Assembly (NCBI RefSeq): GCF_916618895.1
Contig: NZ_OU745391.1
Coordinates: 1,116,001 to 1,180,000, forward strand
Direction of reading: 5' to 3'
Source: Pseudoclavibacter sp. Marseille-Q3772
Lineage (GTDB): Bacteria > Actinomycetota > Actinomycetes > Actinomycetales > Microbacteriaceae
Length of the DNA stretch: 64,000 bases
The notes under the pieces were generated by a model. That model worked only from the letters and a program-made list of their open reading frames with translations. It was not told the DNA's origin and ran no database searches. The translations under genes were made by a program, and so were the position numbers. The stretch's first letter is position 1, and each line of letters opens with the position of its first letter. This document shows positions 26,828 to 49,546 of this stretch, piece by piece.

Positions 26828-28312
26828 ATGACCAAGCACTACCGTGTAGCAGTCCTCGGCGCTGGCCTCGGCGGCCTCGGCATGGGCGCATCGCTCGTAC
26901 GCGCTGGCATCGAAGACTTCATCATTTTTGAGAAGGGCGACGGCGTTGGCGGCGTATGGCGCACCAACACCTACCCGGGCGTAGCCTGCGACACGCAGTC
27001 CCACGCCTACTGCTACAGCTACTTCCTGCACCTGCGCGCATCCTCGATGTACGCACCGGGATCGGACATGCACAGCTACAACGTGCAGCTCAAGGATGCA
27101 TTCGGTCTCGAAAAGCACATCAAGTACAACGCTGAGGTCGTCGCCGCAAAGTGGAACGAAGCAAACGCGAACTGGGAGATCACGCTGCGCGACGGCGAGC
27201 AGGTCACCGCTGACTTCTTCGTACCGGCATGGGGCCAGCTAAACGCACCGAAGACCCCGAGCTGGCCGGGCCAGGAGAAGTTCAAGGGTATTCAGTTCCA
27301 CTCGGCTGAGTGGGACCACAGCGTTGACCTCACCGGCAAGAAGGTCATCTCGATCGGTTCGGCCGCCTCGGCCGTGCAGTACCTGCCGGAGATTGCCAAG
27401 GTTGTTGGCCACCTCGACGTGTTCCAGCGCTCGGCAAACTACATCCTGCCGCGCGACGAAATTGTATTCACCGAAGAGCAGCTCGACGCCTTCGAAGAGC
27501 ACCCCGAGACCTACGAAGAGTCGCGTCGTGAGATCTACGAGGCTCGTGAAGCTGGCTTCGACCGCACCCGCACCGGTACCGACAGCAACGCTGAAGGTGC
27601 GCAGGAGGCCGTGAACTACATGAAGTCGGTCATCAGCGACCCGGTTCTGCAGGAGAAGCTCACCCCAACCTTCGAGTTCGGTTGCAAGCGCATCCTGCGC
27701 ACCTCGGCCTACTACCCCACCTTCCTGCGTGACAACGTCACGCTGGTAACTGAGGGCATCAGCCACTTCACCGAGAACGGCATCGTCACCACCGACGGTG
27801 TTGAGCACGAAGCCGATGTCATCATCTACGGCACCGGCTTCTACTCGCAGAACTTCCAGGGCGACCTGGAGATCGTCGGACGCGACGGCGTCACCCTCGC
27901 CGACCGCTGGGGCGAAGAAGATGCCGAAGCATTCGTTGGCGTGACCGTTGACGGCTTCCCGAACATGTTCCTGGTCTACGGCCCGAACACGAACCTGAAC
28001 CACAACTCGAACGTGGCCATGTTCGAGATCCAGCACGACTACATCATTGACGCGCTCAAGAAGCTCGACGGCATCGAGAACGTGGCTGCGGAAGTACGCC
28101 CGGAGCGTCTGCGCTCGTTCAACGAGCAGGTGCAGGAAGAGATGAAGGGCTCGTCCTTCTCGAGCGAGTGCTCGAGCTGGTACAAGAACTCGAAGGGCAA
28201 GGTCATCAACAACTGGTCGGGCAACGTTGAGGAATACCGCGACTGGGCCGGCGAGTTCAAGCCCGCCGACTACACCATCACTTCAGCTGGAGAGCCGGTG
28301 ACCGTAGCGTGA
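26828..28312 (+). CDS. Baeyer-Villiger-type flavin monooxygenase
   Basis: Predicted 494 aa. It has the FAD Rossmann motif GAGLGGLG (residues 11-18), the NADPH motif SIGSAASA, and between them the type I BVMO fingerprint F-x-G-x3-H-x3-W-D at Phe152, Gly154, His158, Trp162 and Asp163. It would insert oxygen next to a carbonyl, turning a ketone into an ester or lactone using NADPH and oxygen. It is somewhat shorter than the classic 540-aa cyclohexanone enzymes. The flanking alcohol dehydrogenase and esterase genes fit a complete alcohol -> ketone -> ester -> acid plus alcohol route. AGGAAACC precedes the ATG. Confidence 0.93.
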   Translation: MTKHYRVAVLGAGLGGLGMGASLVRAGIEDFIIFEKGDGVGGVWRTNTYPGVACDTQSHAYCYSYFLHLRASSMYAPGSDMHSYNVQLKDAFGLEKHIKYNAEVVAAKWNEANANWEITLRDGEQVTADFFVPAWGQLNAPKTPSWPGQEKFKGIQFHSAEWDHSVDLTGKKVISIGSAASAVQYLPEIAKVVGHLDVFQRSANYILPRDEIVFTEEQLDAFEEHPETYEESRREIYEAREAGFDRTRTGTDSNAEGAQEAVNYMKSVISDPVLQEKLTPTFEFGCKRILRTSAYYPTFLRDNVTLVTEGISHFTENGIVTTDGVEHEADVIIYGTGFYSQNFQGDLEIVGRDGVTLADRWGEEDAEAFVGVTVDGFPNMFLVYGPNTNLNHNSNVAMFEIQHDYIIDALKKLDGIENVAAEVRPERLRSFNEQVQEEMKGSSFSSECSSWYKNSKGKVINNWSGNVEEYRDWAGEFKPADYTITSAGEPVTVA

Positions 28313-29262
28313 GCAACCTCATTCCGCTCGAACAGGTAGCCGAAGACCAGCGCGCAGTCGTCGCTGCGTACCGTGAGGCCGGAGGCAAGTCTTTCCAGGA
28401 CTTCCCCATCGAGGTTTCTCGTGACAACTACGAGAAGTCGTCGGCGGCAAACGGGCTTGAGCGCGATGAGGTCGCCTCGGTTGAGGACGTCAAGATCGAC
28501 GAGTTCCAGGTGCGGGTGTATGACCCGCGCGAGCAGCGGGATGCATCCTCGCCCGTCCTCGTGTTTGCGCACGGGGGCGGCTGGGTCACCGGCTCGCTGG
28601 AGACGCACGACCCGGTGTGCCGTCGCCTGGCGACGCTGACGGGTCTACCGGTTGTTGCCATCGATTACCGTCTCGGACCGGAGTTCCCTTTTCCTGCCGG
28701 ACACATGGACTGCCGCCGTGCGGTCGAATGGGTTCGCGATGAGGCGCAGGCTCGTAGCTGGAACCCGCAGCGCATCGTCACCATTGGCGACAGCGCCGGT
28801 GGTGGACTTGCGACAGTGCTGGCGTACCTGCCGGAGATGCAGGTCGAGGGCACGAAGGTGACCGCTCAAGTGCTGCTGTACCCGGTGCTGGACATTGCCG
28901 AAGAGAGCGTTGGCTACGAGCGCATCGCTGAGGGCTTCCCACTAACGGCTGACACGATGCGCTGGTTTGCCGAGCACCTGCTCGCCGACCCGGCAGATGC
29001 GCGTGACGAGCGAGTTTCGCCCGCGCAGCACGTCAAGGTTGGTGACGCCCCGCAGCCGCCGGCGCTGGTTTTGGCGCTCGGCCTCGACCCGCTCGGTGTT
29101 GAAGCCGTTGAGTACGCGCGTGTGATTGCGCTCAACGGCACGCACGTTGAGTTGCTGCACCTGCCGAACCACGCGCACGGGCTCTTCACATCCGCAGGCA
29201 AGATTGCCATGGGTGCCAAGATGCTCGAGCGTTCGGCGCAGTTCATCGCTGAGCACGCGTAG
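28309..29262 (+). CDS. Alpha/beta-hydrolase esterase (HSL family)
   Basis: Predicted 317-aa esterase. It has the oxyanion-hole motif HGGGWVTG, nucleophile Ser in GDSAGGG and catalytic His in LPNHAHGLF, as in the hormone-sensitive-lipase group. The GTG start overlaps the monooxygenase TGA stop (GTGA), so the two are translationally coupled. It should hydrolyse the ester or lactone produced by the Baeyer-Villiger enzyme. Confidence 0.92.
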   Translation: MSNLIPLEQVAEDQRAVVAAYREAGGKSFQDFPIEVSRDNYEKSSAANGLERDEVASVEDVKIDEFQVRVYDPREQRDASSPVLVFAHGGGWVTGSLETHDPVCRRLATLTGLPVVAIDYRLGPEFPFPAGHMDCRRAVEWVRDEAQARSWNPQRIVTIGDSAGGGLATVLAYLPEMQVEGTKVTAQVLLYPVLDIAEESVGYERIAEGFPLTADTMRWFAEHLLADPADARDERVSPAQHVKVGDAPQPPALVLALGLDPLGVEAVEYARVIALNGTHVELLHLPNHAHGLFTSAGKIAMGAKMLERSAQFIAEHA

Positions 29263-29395
29263 TTCGCTGGCGGCGCAGCGCCGGCGTTCGGCGGTTCGCT
29301 GACGTTCAGCGGTTCTCTGGCGGCGCACCGCCGGCGCACTGCGTTGCGGACGCACTGTCAGCGCACTGTCGGCAGCTCTGGCTCCCTCTCCCGTG

Positions 29396-29473
29396 CCAAA
29401 CTGTCTCACTTTTCGGGGTCACACGACGAAATACCCCTCAAACCCCCGAAAAGTGAGACAAAACGGCACGTGA
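29396..29473. repeat. 78-bp palindromic element, copy 1
   Basis: Identical over 78 bp to the copy 264 bp to the right and in the same orientation. It contains perfect 17-bp inverted arms, TGTCTCACTTTTCGGGG (29402-29418) and CCCCGAAAAGTGAGACA (29444-29460), with a 25-nt spacer. Confidence 0.95.
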
Positions 29474-29659
29474 GGTGGACCCAGGAGTTCAGTGGCAGGG
29501 GCTTAGAGGTGTAGACGTCGGGAGCACCGGCTGGAAGGCGGCCGGCAGAGGATGTCAGGCAGCCGGATGGGTGAGACAAGCTGCCGGCGACCGAGAGAGC
29601 AGCGGACTGAGGATGTCGCCTGAGAGCCGGCAGAAGCAACGCACCACGCAGCTATCCGA

Positions 29660-29737
29660 CCAAACTGTCTCACTTTTCGGGGTCACACGACGAAATACCC
29701 CTCAAACCCCCGAAAAGTGAGACAAAACGGCACGTGA
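29660..29737. repeat. 78-bp palindromic element, copy 2
   Basis: Perfect direct repeat of 29396-29473, including the same 17-bp inverted arms and the CCAAAC and GGCACGTGA flanks. The 186 bp between the copies contain no recognisable gene. Confidence 0.95.
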
Positions 29738-29975: not shown

Positions 29976-32519
29976 CTACTCCTCAGCCGCGTCGTCCCGG
30001 CCAGCGATCGACGCACCAGCCTCTGCGATTCCCGCCGCGGTGTTCCCCTCGGCAGCCGCAGCCGACACACGCTCGGGGCGCTTCACATCAAACCCGAATT
30101 CGCCGTCGGCATAGTCGACCGCCACGTGGTCGCCGCCGCGCAGTTCGCCACGCAGGATGAGCTCCGACAGCTGGTCTTCGACCTCCTGCTGCATCGCACG
30201 GCGCAGCGGTCGCGCACCCAGCGCCGGGTCGTACCCGATCTTGATGAGCTGTTGACGCGCCTCGTCCGAAATCTCGATCGTCATGTCCTGGTCGAGCATG
30301 CGATCGGCCAAACGCTTCGTGAACAGGTTGACGATCTCCAGCAGTTCCTTCGGCGAAAGCTGCGGGAACACGATCGTGTCGTCAACACGGTTGAGGAACT
30401 CCGGCTTGAAGTGCTTCTTGAGCTCTTCGTTCACCTTCGCCTTCATGTTTTCGTATGACGTCTGCGTGTCACCCTCAACCTGGAATCCAACCGGCCCACC
30501 GGCGATGCCCTTGGTACCGAGGTTCGTGGTCATGATGATGACGGTGTTCTTAAAGTCGACCACGCGCCCCTGCCCGTCGGTCAGTCGGCCCTCTTCGAGG
30601 ATCTGCAACAGCGAGTTGAAGATATCGGCGTGCGCCTTCTCGATCTCGTCGAACAGCACAACTGAGAACGGCTTACGACGCACCTTCTCGGTAAGCTGTC
30701 CGCCCTCTTCAAATCCAACGAACCCAGGAGGCGCTCCGAACAGTCGCGAGACCGTGTGCTTTTCACCGAACTCCGACATATCGAGCGTGATCAGCGCGGA
30801 CTCGTCATCAAACAGGAACTCCGCCAGTGCCTTTGCGAGCTCGGTCTTACCTACACCGGTCGGTCCGGCGAAGATAAACGAACCGGATGGACGGTTCGGG
30901 TCTTTCAGGCCGGCACGCGTACGACGAATTGTGCGCGAGAGCGCCTTGACGGCCTCATCCTGACCGATAACCCGCTGGTGCAGGGCCTCTTCCATAAATA
31001 CGAGCCGCGCGGTCTCTTCTTCGGTGAGCTTGTACACCGGAATACCGGTGGCCTGCGCGAGCACCTCGGCAATGAGCCCCGAGTCGACCGTGCCGGTTGC
31101 CTGCACTTCGCCGGCCTTCCACTGCTTCTCGAGTCGCAGGCGCTCGCCGAGCAGCTGCTTCTCGCTATCGCGCAGGGATGCGGCTTCTTCGAAGTCCTGG
31201 GTGTCGATCGCGGTTTCCTTCTCGGCACGTACCTTGGCGATCTTCTCGTCGAGTTCACGCAGCTCCGGCGGCGACGAGAGCACTGAAAGGCGCAGTCGGG
31301 CACCGGCCTCGTCGATCAGGTCGATGGCCTTGTCAGGCAGCTGTCGGTCGGATACATAACGGTCGGAGAGCTGCACCGCCGCGACAATCGCCTCATCGGT
31401 GATGGTGACCTTGTGGAATGCTTCGTACTTGTCGCGCAGTCCCTTCAGGATATTGATGGTGTGCTGCACGGACGGCTCGTCAACAAGCACCGACTGGAAT
31501 CGACGCTCAAGCGCCGCATCCTTTTCAAAGTGCTTCTTGTACTCGTCGAGCGTGGTCGCACCGATGGTCTGCATCTCGCCGCGAGCCAGCATGGGCTTGA
31601 GGATGTTGGCAGCGTCGATGGCGCCTTCGGCCGAGCCTGCACCAACCAGGGTGTGGATCTCGTCGATAAAGACGATGATGTCACCGCGGGTCTTGATCTC
31701 TTTGGTGACCTTCTTCAGGCGCTCTTCGAAGTCACCGCGGTAGCGCGAGCCAGCGATCAGCGAGCCGAGGTCGAGCGCGTACACCTGCTTGTCTTTCAGG
31801 GTTTCGGGCACTTCGCCGGCAACGATCGCCTGCGCGAGCCCTTCGATCACCGCGGTCTTACCGACGCCAGGTTCACCGATGAGTACCGGGTTGTTCTTGG
31901 TTCGGCGCGAGAGAATCTGCATCACGCGTTCGATCTCTTTCTCGCGGCCGATCACCGGGTCGAGCTTGTTTTCGCGCGCGAGCTGCGAGAGGTTTTCGCC
32001 GAACTGGTCGAGTACCGCCGAGCCCTTGACGTTCGCGTTCGAGGCCGAGTTGTCAGCTCCAACACCGACGGTCTCTTTGCCCTGGAAGCCGGCAAGCAGC
32101 TGAATCACCTGCTGACGCACCGAGTTCAGGTCTGCACCGAGCTTGACGAGCACCTGCGCGGCGACGCCTTCTCCTTCGCGGATCAGCCCGAGCAGCAGGT
32201 GCTCGGTGCCAATGTAGTTGTGCCCCAGTTGCAATGCTTCACGCAGCGAAAGCTCCAGCACCTTCTTCGCACGCGGCGTGAAGGGGATGTGGCCACCGGG
32301 CTTGTGCTGCCCCTTGCCGATGATGTCTTGCACCTGTTCGCGCACGGCTTCGAGCGAGATGTCGAGCGATTCGAGCGCCTTTGCTGCCACACCGTCACCC
32401 TCGTGAATGAGGCCGAGCAGCAGGTGCTCGGTGCCAATGTAGTTGTGGTTGAGCAGCTTCGCCTCTTCCTGGGCGAGCACGATCACGCGGCGGGCGCGGT
32501 CGGTAAAGCGTTCAAACAT
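29976..32519 (-). CDS. clpC: ATP-dependent Clp protease ATP-binding subunit ClpC
   Basis: Predicted 847-aa AAA+ unfoldase. Two Clp_N repeats cover residues 1-145. D1 has Walker [10 protein letters not shown] and Walker B in [13 protein letters not shown], a UVR-containing middle domain follows, and D2 has GPTGVGKTE and [11 protein letters not shown]. The length and UVR motif separate ClpC from ClpB and ClpA. It feeds substrates to ClpP1P2, not encoded here. GGAG lies 10 nt before the ATG, and a sequence matching the ClgR operator lies about 100 nt upstream. Confidence 0.97.
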
Positions 32520-41283: not shown

Positions 41284-41358
41284 TCAGAACTGTCACCAAA
41301 ACCGCCCATAATCCGTCATTCCGGCCCAATTCCGCCCAAATTGGTGACAGTTCCGACA
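41284..41358 (+). repeat. Left 75-bp inverted repeat of the DUF559 island
   Basis: Contains perfect 13-bp arms GAACTGTCACCAA (41287-41299) and TTGGTGACAGTTC (41341-41353). The four differences from the right copy all fall in the central spacer, so the arms are the conserved part. Confidence 0.93.
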
Positions 41359-41360
41359 CC

Positions 41361-42200
41361 TCACCACCGCAAAACCGATAACAAATAGGGAGTCAGCTCC
41401 TCCAGCTGGTACATGACCTGCACGTAACTGAGCCGGAGGACGCGGTACCCACGAGCTTTCAGCGTGACATCCCGCGAACGATCCGCGTGAAAACGCGCGC
41501 CGGTCCCGTGAAACTCAAACCCGTCGATCTCGACAACGGTGTTGCCGACGAGAAAATCCACGATGCCCACCCCACCGATCGCCACTTGCGTCGCGAACGC
41601 GAAACCGTGCTCAACCAACCAAAGCCGGAAAATCGTTTCAATACCCGACCCGGCGCCGCGATCAGAAAGCTCCCACGCACGGCGCCCCTGCACTCCCGCG
41701 CTCAAACACACGCGCTCCAGCTCCCAGTCATGATGGGTTCTGCTATTGCGTAACGCATCGAGCGCGATCACCCTGTCGAGCTGCGTGGCTGTGCGCAGCA
41801 CGACCGCGAGCGCCGTGAGCGGCGCGTCCACACTCGTTCGGCAGGGATGACTATTTGCGCGTCGCAGCGCGATCGGCTGCAGTCCCGGGCTGGTTTTGAT
41901 TCGGTCAACCCTTGACGCGCGTACCTGAAGTTCCGGGGTGTCACGGATCCAGTAGCCGCCCAGTCGGAGCGCGTTGAGCCCGGTCAGCACTCCTCCGGCT
42001 CTAACAGCGCGGACGACCTCGTGCTTAGCAGCATCGTTCTTGAACCACCCTCGGCGGATAGGTTCTAACAGGCCGACCTTAATGAGTTTTCGGCGTTCGT
42101 TGAGTGCGATGCCGGCGCGCTCGAGTTGCTGGCCCGAGACGACGCCGAAGTTGTTATCGCAGCACCGCTGGGCGCAGTTGGCAGCTTCAAAGTAGGTCAT
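41361..42200 (-). CDS. DUF559 (Vsr/PD-(D/E)XK-like) endonuclease-domain protein
   Basis: Predicted 279 aa. The N-terminal third resembles the winged-helix antitoxin domain of AbiEi-type proteins (GVVSGQQLERAGIALNERR, then LLEPIRRGWF). The C-terminal DUF559 domain (about 185-279) keeps the nuclease pattern: Glu188, Asp215 in GIVDFLVG, and Glu224/Asp226 in VVEIDGFEFHG, then RDVTLKARGYRVLRLSY. DUF559 is related to very-short-patch and restriction-like nucleases; cellular roles are not established. The ATG has no ribosome-binding site but TATAAC lies 7 nt upstream, so the gene carries its own leaderless promoter. Confidence 0.85.
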   Translation of the reverse strand: MTYFEAANCAQRCCDNNFGVVSGQQLERAGIALNERRKLIKVGLLEPIRRGWFKNDAAKHEVVRAVRAGGVLTGLNALRLGGYWIRDTPELQVRASRVDRIKTSPGLQPIALRRANSHPCRTSVDAPLTALAVVLRTATQLDRVIALDALRNSRTHHDWELERVCLSAGVQGRRAWELSDRGAGSGIETIFRLWLVEHGFAFATQVAIGGVGIVDFLVGNTVVEIDGFEFHGTGARFHADRSRDVTLKARGYRVLRLSYVQVMYQLEELTPYLLSVLRW

Positions 42201-42207
42201 GCAGCCC

Positions 42208-42213
42208 GTTATA
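42208..42213 (-). promoter_or_regulatory. -10 hexamer of the leaderless DUF559 gene
   Basis: On the minus strand TATAAC (five of six consensus bases) precedes the ATG by 7 nt. It lies inside the island, so the gene is expressed independently of the folate operon. Confidence 0.55.
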
Positions 42214-42298
42214 GCGGCGAGAACGGGTAGTGAACTCGCGGGAGATGCCGGGCTGTGGATAGATGAGTTTCCACAGGTGCCGCGGTGCAGGGGAAGTT

Positions 42299-42373
42299 TG
42301 TCGGAACTGTCACCAATTTGGGCAGATTTGGGTCGGAATGACCGATTATGGGCGGTTTTGGTGACAGTTCTGA
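42299..42373 (-). repeat. Right 75-bp inverted repeat of the DUF559 island
   Basis: Inverted copy of 41284-41358 with four substitutions and no gaps. It has the same perfect 13-bp arms (42304-42316 and 42358-42370). It lies 68 bp beyond the folE stop. Confidence 0.93.
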
Positions 42374-47740: not shown

Positions 47741-48763
47741 TTACACCTGCTCGTCCTCGGCCTCGTCGCTGCCTGCCGCACCGAACAGGATCCTGCCGGC
47801 AGCGCGCTCCACCCGAATACCGGGCAAATCAATCGGACCCTGACCCCGCCACTCCGTTGCCAGCGCGGTAACGGCCATCGTGTGTGCCCGGCTCAGCGAG
47901 ACGCCGAATCCCTGCTCAGCGACGGCCCGACAGATGCGCTGCCGGAGCGCGGCCGGCTGCGTCACCAAACCACCGACGTCGACGGTGACGCGACCATCCG
48001 CATCCGTACCGACAATCTCATGCGCCCATTCCAGTGCGAGCGCGTCAAGCGTTTCAGAGTCTTCGCGCAGGGTGGTTGCAGTTCGCGCCAGCGCTTCGGC
48101 GATGCCGGGCCCGAGTTCGCGCTCGAGCATCGGCATGACGGTGTTGCGGATGCGCACGCGGCGGTAGCGTTCGTCGTCGTTCATGGGGTCGTGCCACGGC
48201 TGCAGGTTCTGGTCGGCGCACGCCTGTTCAGTCTCGGCGCGGCGGATGCCCAGCAGCGGACGCACGAGGGACTCATTGACCACGGCCATACCGTGCAGGG
48301 ATTTTCCACCGGAGCCGCGGGCGAGGCCGAGCAGCACAGTTTCGGCTTGGTCGTCGAGAGTGTGGCCGAGCAGCACCCATTGCGCGTTGAGTTCGTTGCG
48401 CGCACGGTCGATCGCGGCGTAGCGGGCGGCGCGAGCGGATGCTTCGGGTCCGGCACCTTCGTCGGTTACTTCGATCGTTTCGATCACGACGGGGTCGAGG
48501 CCAAGTTCGCGGGCCTGGGATGCGGCGCGTTCAGCCTGCTCGGCGGAACCCGGCTGCAATTGATGATCGACAATCACCGCTCCTACCCGCATCCCCGCTC
48601 GCGGCACCTCGAACGCGGCACCCGCGGCAAGTGCGAGCGAATCGGGGCCGCCGGAGAGCGCAACAAGCACCAGGTCGCCTTCTGCCGCAACCCCGCGCAA
48701 CGCAGTGCGGATGGCACGCCGAATATCGGCTACCGGTGGGGTGAGGCGCGGGCGATCAATCAC
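47741..48763 (-). CDS. tilS: tRNA(Ile)-lysidine synthase
   Basis: Predicted 340 aa. The N-type PP-loop SGGPDSLALAAG (about residue 38) binds ATP, and HTLDDQAET and the Arg-rich RYRRVRIRNTVMP segment follow. It makes lysidine at position 34 of tRNA-Ile(CAU). It is shorter than the E. coli protein because it lacks the long C-terminal domain, as usual in actinobacteria. The GTG start has no Shine-Dalgarno and is preceded by TAGGCT with a 6-nt gap. Confidence 0.94.
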   Translation of the reverse strand: MIDRPRLTPPVADIRRAIRTALRGVAAEGDLVLVALSGGPDSLALAAGAAFEVPRAGMRVGAVIVDHQLQPGSAEQAERAASQARELGLDPVVIETIEVTDEGAGPEASARAARYAAIDRARNELNAQWVLLGHTLDDQAETVLLGLARGSGGKSLHGMAVVNESLVRPLLGIRRAETEQACADQNLQPWHDPMNDDERYRRVRIRNTVMPMLERELGPGIAEALARTATTLREDSETLDALALEWAHEIVGTDADGRVTVDVGGLVTQPAALRQRICRAVAEQGFGVSLSRAHTMAVTALATEWRGQGPIDLPGIRVERAAGRILFGAAGSDEAEDEQV

Positions 48764-48848: not shown

Positions 48849-48921
48849 CGGACAAACGGCGCAAATGCGACCCGGCAACCCGTATATCAGGATGCCCACC
48901 CTTATGTTCGCCATTTGTCCG
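48849..48921. repeat. 73-bp palindromic element between tilS and ppa
   Basis: Arms CGGACAAACGGCG (48849-48861) and CGCCATTTGTCCG (48909-48921) pair at 12 of 13 positions across a 47-nt spacer, with CCCC and GGGG just outside. Its size and design match the palindromes at 29.4 kb and around the DUF559 island, but the sequence differs. Confidence 0.7.
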
Positions 48922-49057
48922 CAAGGGGCCGGCGCAACAGCAGCAAGCCGCCCCAAGGAATCGTGCGGGTACGGCCCCGCTAGGCTAGTGCTATCGCAAC
49001 CGCGCGTTGCTGCACACACGACCAAGCACATCCATCAACCCCGTTAAGGAGCACTCA

Positions 49058-49546
49058 ATGGGCACTTACGATGTCGTCATCGAAATCCCCCGTGGCAGCC
49101 ACAACAAGTATGAGGTCGACCACGAGACCGGCCGCGTCTACCTCGACCGTGTGCTGTTCACCCCGTTCGTTTACCCGATCGACTACGGCTTCTTCGAGCA
49201 CACCCTCGCCGATGACGGCGACCCGCTCGACGCCCTCGTGCTGCTCGAGTACCCGGTTTTCCCCGGTGTCGGCCTCAAGGTCCGCCCCGTCGGTGTCTTG
49301 CGCATGTCCGATGAAGCCGGTGGCGACGACAAGATTCTGTGCGTCCCCCACAAGGACCCGCGCTTTGCTCACATCCAGGAGCTCGCCGACGTGCCTGAGA
49401 ACACCCGTGACCAGCTGAAGCACTTCTTCGAGCACTACAAGGACCTCGAACCCGGCAAGTGGGTCAAGGTTGATTCCTGGGGCACCGCGGCCGAGGCCGA
49501 CGAGATCATCCAGCGTTCACTCGCTGCCTACAAGCCAGCCGAGTAG
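49058..49546 (+). CDS. ppa: Inorganic pyrophosphatase
   Basis: Predicted 162-aa family I soluble enzyme hydrolysing pyrophosphate. Motifs are [12 protein letters not shown], the acidic metal site [12 protein letters not shown] and [19 protein letters not shown] stands 7 nt before the ATG. A strong terminator follows. Confidence 0.97.

Follow-up and report, generated by a model that had tools for sequence, protein, structure and literature searches.

A DUF559 gene enclosed by two inverted palindromes was identified at the folE-folP junction of a 64,000-nucleotide stretch of Pseudoclavibacter DNA (the window), and its product is probably (we estimate about 60%) the resident endonuclease of its own private, REPIN-like family of 50-100 bp palindromes. 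Computation yielded the layout, the gene-specific arms, their dispersal, their near-constant or stepped spacing, the fold predicted for the protein and the finding of no Y1 transposase in the genus; the DUF559 system would bind these arms, nick or cut them and copy them. With this layout and with palindromes that recur elsewhere, it looks like a self-spreading repeat system of a type not described so far; because its enzyme is unrelated to RAYTs, we regard it as new in kind, with a mode of operation resembling that of a known system.

As the preliminary description of this DNA had claimed, positions 41284-41358 and 42299-42373 form an inverted repeat of 75 nt, complementary at 71 of the 75 positions (95%), the 13-nt arms GAACTGTCACCAA are perfect within both elements, and the stop codon of the DUF559 gene ends at 41361, 2 nt from the end of the left element at 41358. 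The 73-bp bounds of both elements in Table 1 were set by their outer TCAG/CGGA ends. A TATAAC promoter of its own had also been assigned to the gene. The motif does lie at 42213-42208 on the minus strand, 7 nt before the ATG, but a sigma-70 scan did not report it, and the promoter is therefore only putative.

The neighbors of the gene are folE (PF01227) and folP (PF00809). Its product belongs to the DUF559 family (PF04480; 31.1 bits against a Pfam cut-off of 20.6), NCBIfam offered no family for it, and a 62% match across 60% of its length was obtained to a Gulosibacter bifidus protein. Both an AbiEi and a Vsr fold were recognized in the predicted structure, according to which a DNA-binding half resembling AbiEi antitoxins is fused to a nuclease of the Vsr type. 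The best structural match of the predicted nuclease domain is the homing endonuclease I-Bth0305I, and the acidic residues E188, D215, and D226 of the nuclease are invariant in both alignments; a sequence search of the PDB with the window protein gave weak matches only, the best being 3hrl (E 0.084). Positions 28500-50000 of the window had no match in Rfam, and no intron was seen at the locus. The unit had initially been described as mobile or defence-type. In a defence or addiction unit, DNA would be cut by the nuclease, and the palindromes would label self or serve as antidote sites. We judge this highly improbable: AbiEi and Vsr relatives are tied to defence or repair and PADLOC returned weak AbiEi matches, but the window gene adjoins folE and folP and has no AbiEii nucleotidyltransferase partner as a direct neighbor, the palindrome families look like dispersed repeats, and nothing pointing to a role in defence emerged.

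The source genome (G000) is a single contig of 2.0 Mb in which a protein search identified three DUF559 genes; with the window protein, the other two share 38% and 33% identity. Each of the three genes has its own dispersed palindrome family, termed A, B, and C. For family A (AACTGTCACCAA arms), which belongs to the window gene, the exact two-arm pattern retrieved 6 palindromes from the genome and the reversed-pattern control 0, whereas a single arm with one mismatch allowed gave 28 matches, compared to 8 for the reversed control; 9 palindromes were built from these single-arm matches, 2 of them flanking the window gene. Family B (AATGGCGAAAATA arms; 21 matches, reversed control 0), which comprises 11 elements of 73 bp, encloses the second gene (C1:1558682). 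Family C arms (CCAAACTGTCTCACTT; 38 matches, reversed control 0) are found on both sides of the third gene (C1:1800638), those upstream being degenerate, and the 30 of the 38 arm matches with loci given correspond to at least 27 distinct elements, of which 25 measure 77 bp. Elements of this family form local groups of direct copies about 140-260 bp apart, some with duplicated flanks. The window itself harbors two C elements and one B element, all of them between ORFs (Table 1). Thus, all three genes of this genome are distinct and have arms on both sides, degenerate upstream in the case of C, which is the gene linkage that is seen for REPINs and RAYTs.

Table 1. Features of the window and their coordinates
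Feature	Position	Strand	Remarks
ORFs around the family C pair	28309-29262, 29976-32519	+, -	esterase-like (28309-29262) and ClpC-like (29976-32519); names by eye
Family C element, first of direct pair	29393..29469	.	its DUF559 gene at C1:1800638
Family C element, second of direct pair	29657..29733	.	its DUF559 gene at C1:1800638
Family A palindromic element, 3' side of DUF559 gene	41284..41356	.	arms AACTGTCACCAA / TTGGTGACAGTT, arm-to-arm 53 bp
DUF559 gene	41361..42200	-	279 aa; ATG 42200-42198
Vsr/EDxHD-type nuclease domain, residues 184-279	41364..41651	-	predicted structure
AbiEi-antitoxin-like half, residues 1-180	41661..42200	-	predicted structure
Family A palindromic element, 5' side of DUF559 gene	42301..42373	.	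inverted relative to the 41284..41356 element
ORFs around the family B element	47741-48763, 49007-49546	-, +	TilS-like (47741-48763) and pyrophosphatase-like (49007-49546); names by eye
Family B element	48849..48921	.	its DUF559 gene at C1:1558682

Arms of DUF559 genes also recur in other genomes. The sister species (G001) is the congener with the closest folP, and counts for this genome cover about 0.6 of its 2.1 Mb. The arms of all four of its DUF559 genes recur: the L074 family, which is that of the folE-folP gene, gave 15 matches (control 1) and seven elements, the L114 family 9 matches (control 1) and four elements, and the L079 family 7 matches (control 2), and for L093 two similar elements were found de novo, without a control. 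Two of these four genes have the repeat on one side only, so that the gene linkage is only partial in this genome; at the folE-folP gene, two direct copies are located on one side and none was found on the other. In G038, 79 arm matches were obtained (control 0), of which 70 were paired by hand into 35 elements, leaving 9 arms unpaired, and two of these elements lie beside the gene. Outside the class, the gene of G093 is located between two near-perfect palindromes of about 50 bp that have eight further copies in this genome (12 matches, reversed control 2). All nine arm families tested, which were chosen for their clear arms, occur again away from their gene, in two cases weakly.

Two pairs of orphan-like palindromes were noted in G001, at C2:101830 and C3:52191 (CAAAGTGGTGCA) and at C2:246740 and 247918 (GACTTTGCACAGT), within L206-L237. 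Within the portion of the genome that was retrieved, neither pair could be assigned to a DUF559 gene, and they may represent orphan families or belong to a gene in the unsampled rest. One intergenic stretch contains A and C elements in G000 (L041 ~6272, C1:1816271) and L114- and L074-type elements in G001 (C3:102771-105202), suggesting a shared insertion hot spot.

DUF559 homologues were identified in 42 of 79 genomes, the source genome included, at 102 places in all. Their surroundings were analyzed by matching the left flank to the reverse-complemented right flank, and shifted windows of the same loci were used as controls. Among the relatives, 63 of the 102 places were taken, namely, the 3 of the source genome and 60 that were mostly the best-scoring ones; a score of at least 25 was reached at 26 of these 63 loci and in 2 of 236 shifted controls, and a score of at least 30 at 20 loci and in 0 of 236 controls. 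The other 37 loci scored below 25 in this two-sided test, which counts against the reading as a resident endonuclease. Across the phylum, 49 of the 149 genomes drawn, again with the source genome, had a homologue, and 29 places, one per genome, were selected, one of which did not have enough flank. Of the resulting 28 loci, including 3 that are cut by contig ends and for which the assumed gene position may be off, 9 scored at least 25 and 6 at least 30, each compared to 1 of 110 control windows, which in this test overlap the gene. Four named plasmid loci, scored without controls, gave 39 (Tsukamurella tyrosinosolvens), 30 (Actinomyces oris), 15, and 20. The question raised at the outset was whether the 75-bp element repeatedly flanks DUF559 genes: palindromes do so at many loci in many genera, with arms that differ per locus. 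The 78 other genomes lack the exact two-arm pattern of the window gene, and in a contig set, which may exclude the source genome, it was found in one stretch, a lone 54-bp palindrome of Plantibacter flavus; since the arms are gene-specific, such a search for the exact element is uninformative. An inspection of the listed arms by eye revealed no shared GTAG or CGTC tag, such as REPs have at their foot.

The arms thus change from locus to locus while the enclosed gene is a DUF559 gene, among loci with inverted flanks that were picked by this gene. This observation bears on the possibility that an unrelated transposase mobilizes the palindromes as miniature inverted-repeat elements, with the DUF559 gene as a passenger. 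Such elements would account for the terminal inverted arms, the near-constant length, and the dispersal, but not for the enclosure of this gene at locus after locus with changing arms. In addition, no target-site duplication was detected in 16 solo A and B elements (mean of 0.88 nt as compared to 1.39 nt in shuffled flanks, with element bounds assumed at the outer arm ends), and a transposase search, which covered the Y1 family alone, detected Y1_Tnp (PF01797, IS200/RAYT) in 0 of 11 congeneric genomes, while 5 of 14 control genomes were positive. We therefore consider a passenger gene very unlikely.

The DUF559 gene looks vertically inherited, whereas the palindromes disperse. The orthologue of the window gene in G001 is located between the same genes, folE and folP, the regions of the other two G000 genes align to G001 regions that hold L079 and L114, and the tree pairs all three G000 genes with their G001 orthologues with a support of 100/99 to 100/100. 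There is therefore little sign that the small mobile unit postulated in the preliminary description has moved recently in its entirety, given that the three genes are syntenic in the sister species; what disperses are the palindromes of 50-100 bp. No excision or new insertion was seen in the genomes compared. A comparison of the folE-folP junction in relatives, which had been proposed as a check for an empty site, revealed a short junction with no DUF559 gene in between in 3 of 10 congeners, the gap between match ends being about 50 nt in G006, 120 nt in G007, and 180 nt in G003. The gap amounts to 1.1-6 kb in five others, and none of these eight junctions gave a DUF559 match. At this junction, the gene is codirectional with folE and folP in G000 and runs against them in G001 and G004, and G004 carries a DUF559 protein of another clade there. 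The folP of G009 (L204) was matched in two pieces in different frames that meet at about residue 119-120, due to either an assembly error or a lesion. A free-standing EDxHD homing endonuclease that invades its target by gene conversion, leaving palindromes as by-products, would be in agreement with the short junctions devoid of the gene in three congeners and with I-Bth0305I being structurally the closest to the nuclease domain. It is nevertheless a very doubtful explanation, as it does not explain the gene-specific, dispersed arms of near-constant spacing and as the loci are syntenic between the sister species.

In the three G000/G001 orthologue pairs, the arms are unrelated, and the AbiEi-like part of the proteins is 42-47% identical, compared to 62-70% for the nuclease part. 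Corresponding values for three closer pairs are 86 versus 98%, 91 versus 93%, and 90 versus 90%. The proteins of L080 and L081 are 90% identical, with both parts diverging equally, and their loci have unrelated far upstream flanks and no shared palindrome, which counts against the main reading. A near-perfect palindrome of about 75 bp downstream of the gene at L121, L132, and L123 has been retained between G007 and G008, changes in one arm being compensated in the other, and in G009 its place is taken by a stretch of N. For 35 loci with arms picked and typed by hand, some from one-sided palindromes, arm and protein similarity did not correlate (rho -0.02; 671 of 1000 permutations as high); our reading is that the arms are saturated at these distances. 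Solo elements of G000 were absent from the orthologous G001 spacer at all 4 loci examined, and no base-exact empty site was seen when these 4 loci were aligned base by base, because the spacers are too diverged. Recognition of the ends by the encoded protein, one of the two options originally suggested besides a protein acting in trans, appears to be the best reading, and there is indirect support for cognate recognition.

The main rival is a regulator with a regulon of operators. According to this explanation, the DUF559 protein acts as a transcription factor that controls its own gene and a regulon, with the palindromes serving as operators at both, and the nuclease domain is secondary. There is precedent in AbiEi antitoxins, which, according to the accessible text of PMC7319586, repress their own promoters by binding to inverted repeats, and at many loci an element is indeed located upstream of the gene. 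However, the elements are 50-100 bp long and are also found downstream of the stop codon, between convergent ORFs (29393-29733), and in local clusters, they were not kept in the sister species at any of the 4 loci examined, and the nuclease residues E188, D215, and D226 are invariant in both alignments. We thus consider the regulator rather unlikely and favor a resident endonuclease.

Further information on how such an endonuclease may act comes from the spacing of the arms. The arm-to-arm distance is near-constant within a family, while the spacers vary. This distance is 53 bp in 6, 54 bp in 2, and 52 bp in 1 of the family A elements, 48 bp in 11/11 for family B, 59 bp in 7/7 for the L074 family, and 49 bp in 4/4 for the L114 family. 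The 35 hand-matched pairs of G038 have distances of 81 bp (25 pairs), 82 bp (5 pairs), 70 bp (4 pairs), and 93 bp (1 pair), and these steps of 11-12 bp, which are roughly helical, suggest that two proteins are bound to one face of duplex DNA. The hairpin potential of the spacers was mixed, with mean z values, derived from single-base shuffles and, for C and G038, from the folding of 25 of 27 and of 15 elements, respectively, of -2.5 for A, -1.6 for B, -1.2 for C, and -0.4 for G038, so that single-strand folding is not clearly what is selected.

In the mechanism proposed, the AbiEi-like half would bind duplex DNA at both inverted arms of a single repeat, with the near-constant spacer length holding two monomers in helical register, and the Vsr-like half would nick or cut at the bound repeat. 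It counts against this mechanism that REase-fold nucleases are not known to join strands by themselves; the copying of the repeat into further intergenic sites, singly or as a local tandem unit, would fall to host repair or replication. The gene would lie between or beside copies of its repeat and be kept at its locus by vertical descent. The DNA-binding half would drift together with the arms, and orthologous genes would thereby come to be associated with unrelated repeat families in sister species. The net effect would be like that of REPIN/RAYT with an unrelated enzyme.

This reading suggests what a domain of unknown function may do and leads to the prediction of a group of nucleases that are sequence-specific and act at two sites. 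In the accessible text of the literature searched, RAYTs, which are Y1 transposases, are the one enzyme family so far tied to the spread of REP-like palindromes. If an unrelated enzyme with palindromes specific to each gene were the second, REP-like spread would become testable by comparison, with many natural protein-arm pairs available for specificity swaps.

The literature compared comprises the accessible text of PMC3116915, PMC3710099, PMC7319586, PMC11079077, and PMC3733652; no published link of DUF559, Vsr, or AbiEi to dispersed palindromes was found in the sources covered, most subscription journals lying outside the search. AbiEi is described in the accessible text as binding pairs of 23-bp inverted repeats (PMC7319586), but its known sites are just 3 or 13 bp apart, closer than most arms observed here, a point against the proposed binding. 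The AbiE toxin-antitoxin system differs further in that the AbiEi-like half is here joined to a nuclease, with no AbiEii toxin as a direct neighbor. Vsr, DUF559 (PF04480), and I-Bth0305I share the nuclease fold and the conserved residues, but the gene studied here is tied to private dispersed palindromes and has no intron at its locus. With MITEs, the palindromes share that they are short, noncoding elements with terminal inverted repeats; they differ in that no target-site duplication was detected and in that the enclosed gene is not a known transposase.

The closest resemblance is to REPINs, which, in the accessible text of PMC3116915, are inverted palindromic doublets with conserved spacing and a variable spacer that are dispersed, form tandem clusters, and have a distinct single-copy gene; REPs with no linked transposase, the CGTC repeats, are also on record (PMC3733652, accessible text). 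The palindrome families described here are likewise dispersed inverted doublets of conserved spacing, with tandem clusters and a distinct single gene. Membership in REPIN/RAYT fails, as no Y1 transposase was found in the 11 congeneric genomes, and the analogy stands. The enzyme is an AbiEi-Vsr protein, whereas RAYT is a Y1 HUH tyrosine transposase, and the stepped spacing suggests recognition of duplex and not of single-stranded DNA. At about even odds, in our estimation, these AbiEi-Vsr nucleases constitute an independent, phylum-wide counterpart of REPIN/RAYT in Actinobacteria, which would propagate private families with paired duplex arms in helical phase and renew these arms so fast that sister-species orthologues come to have unrelated repeats.
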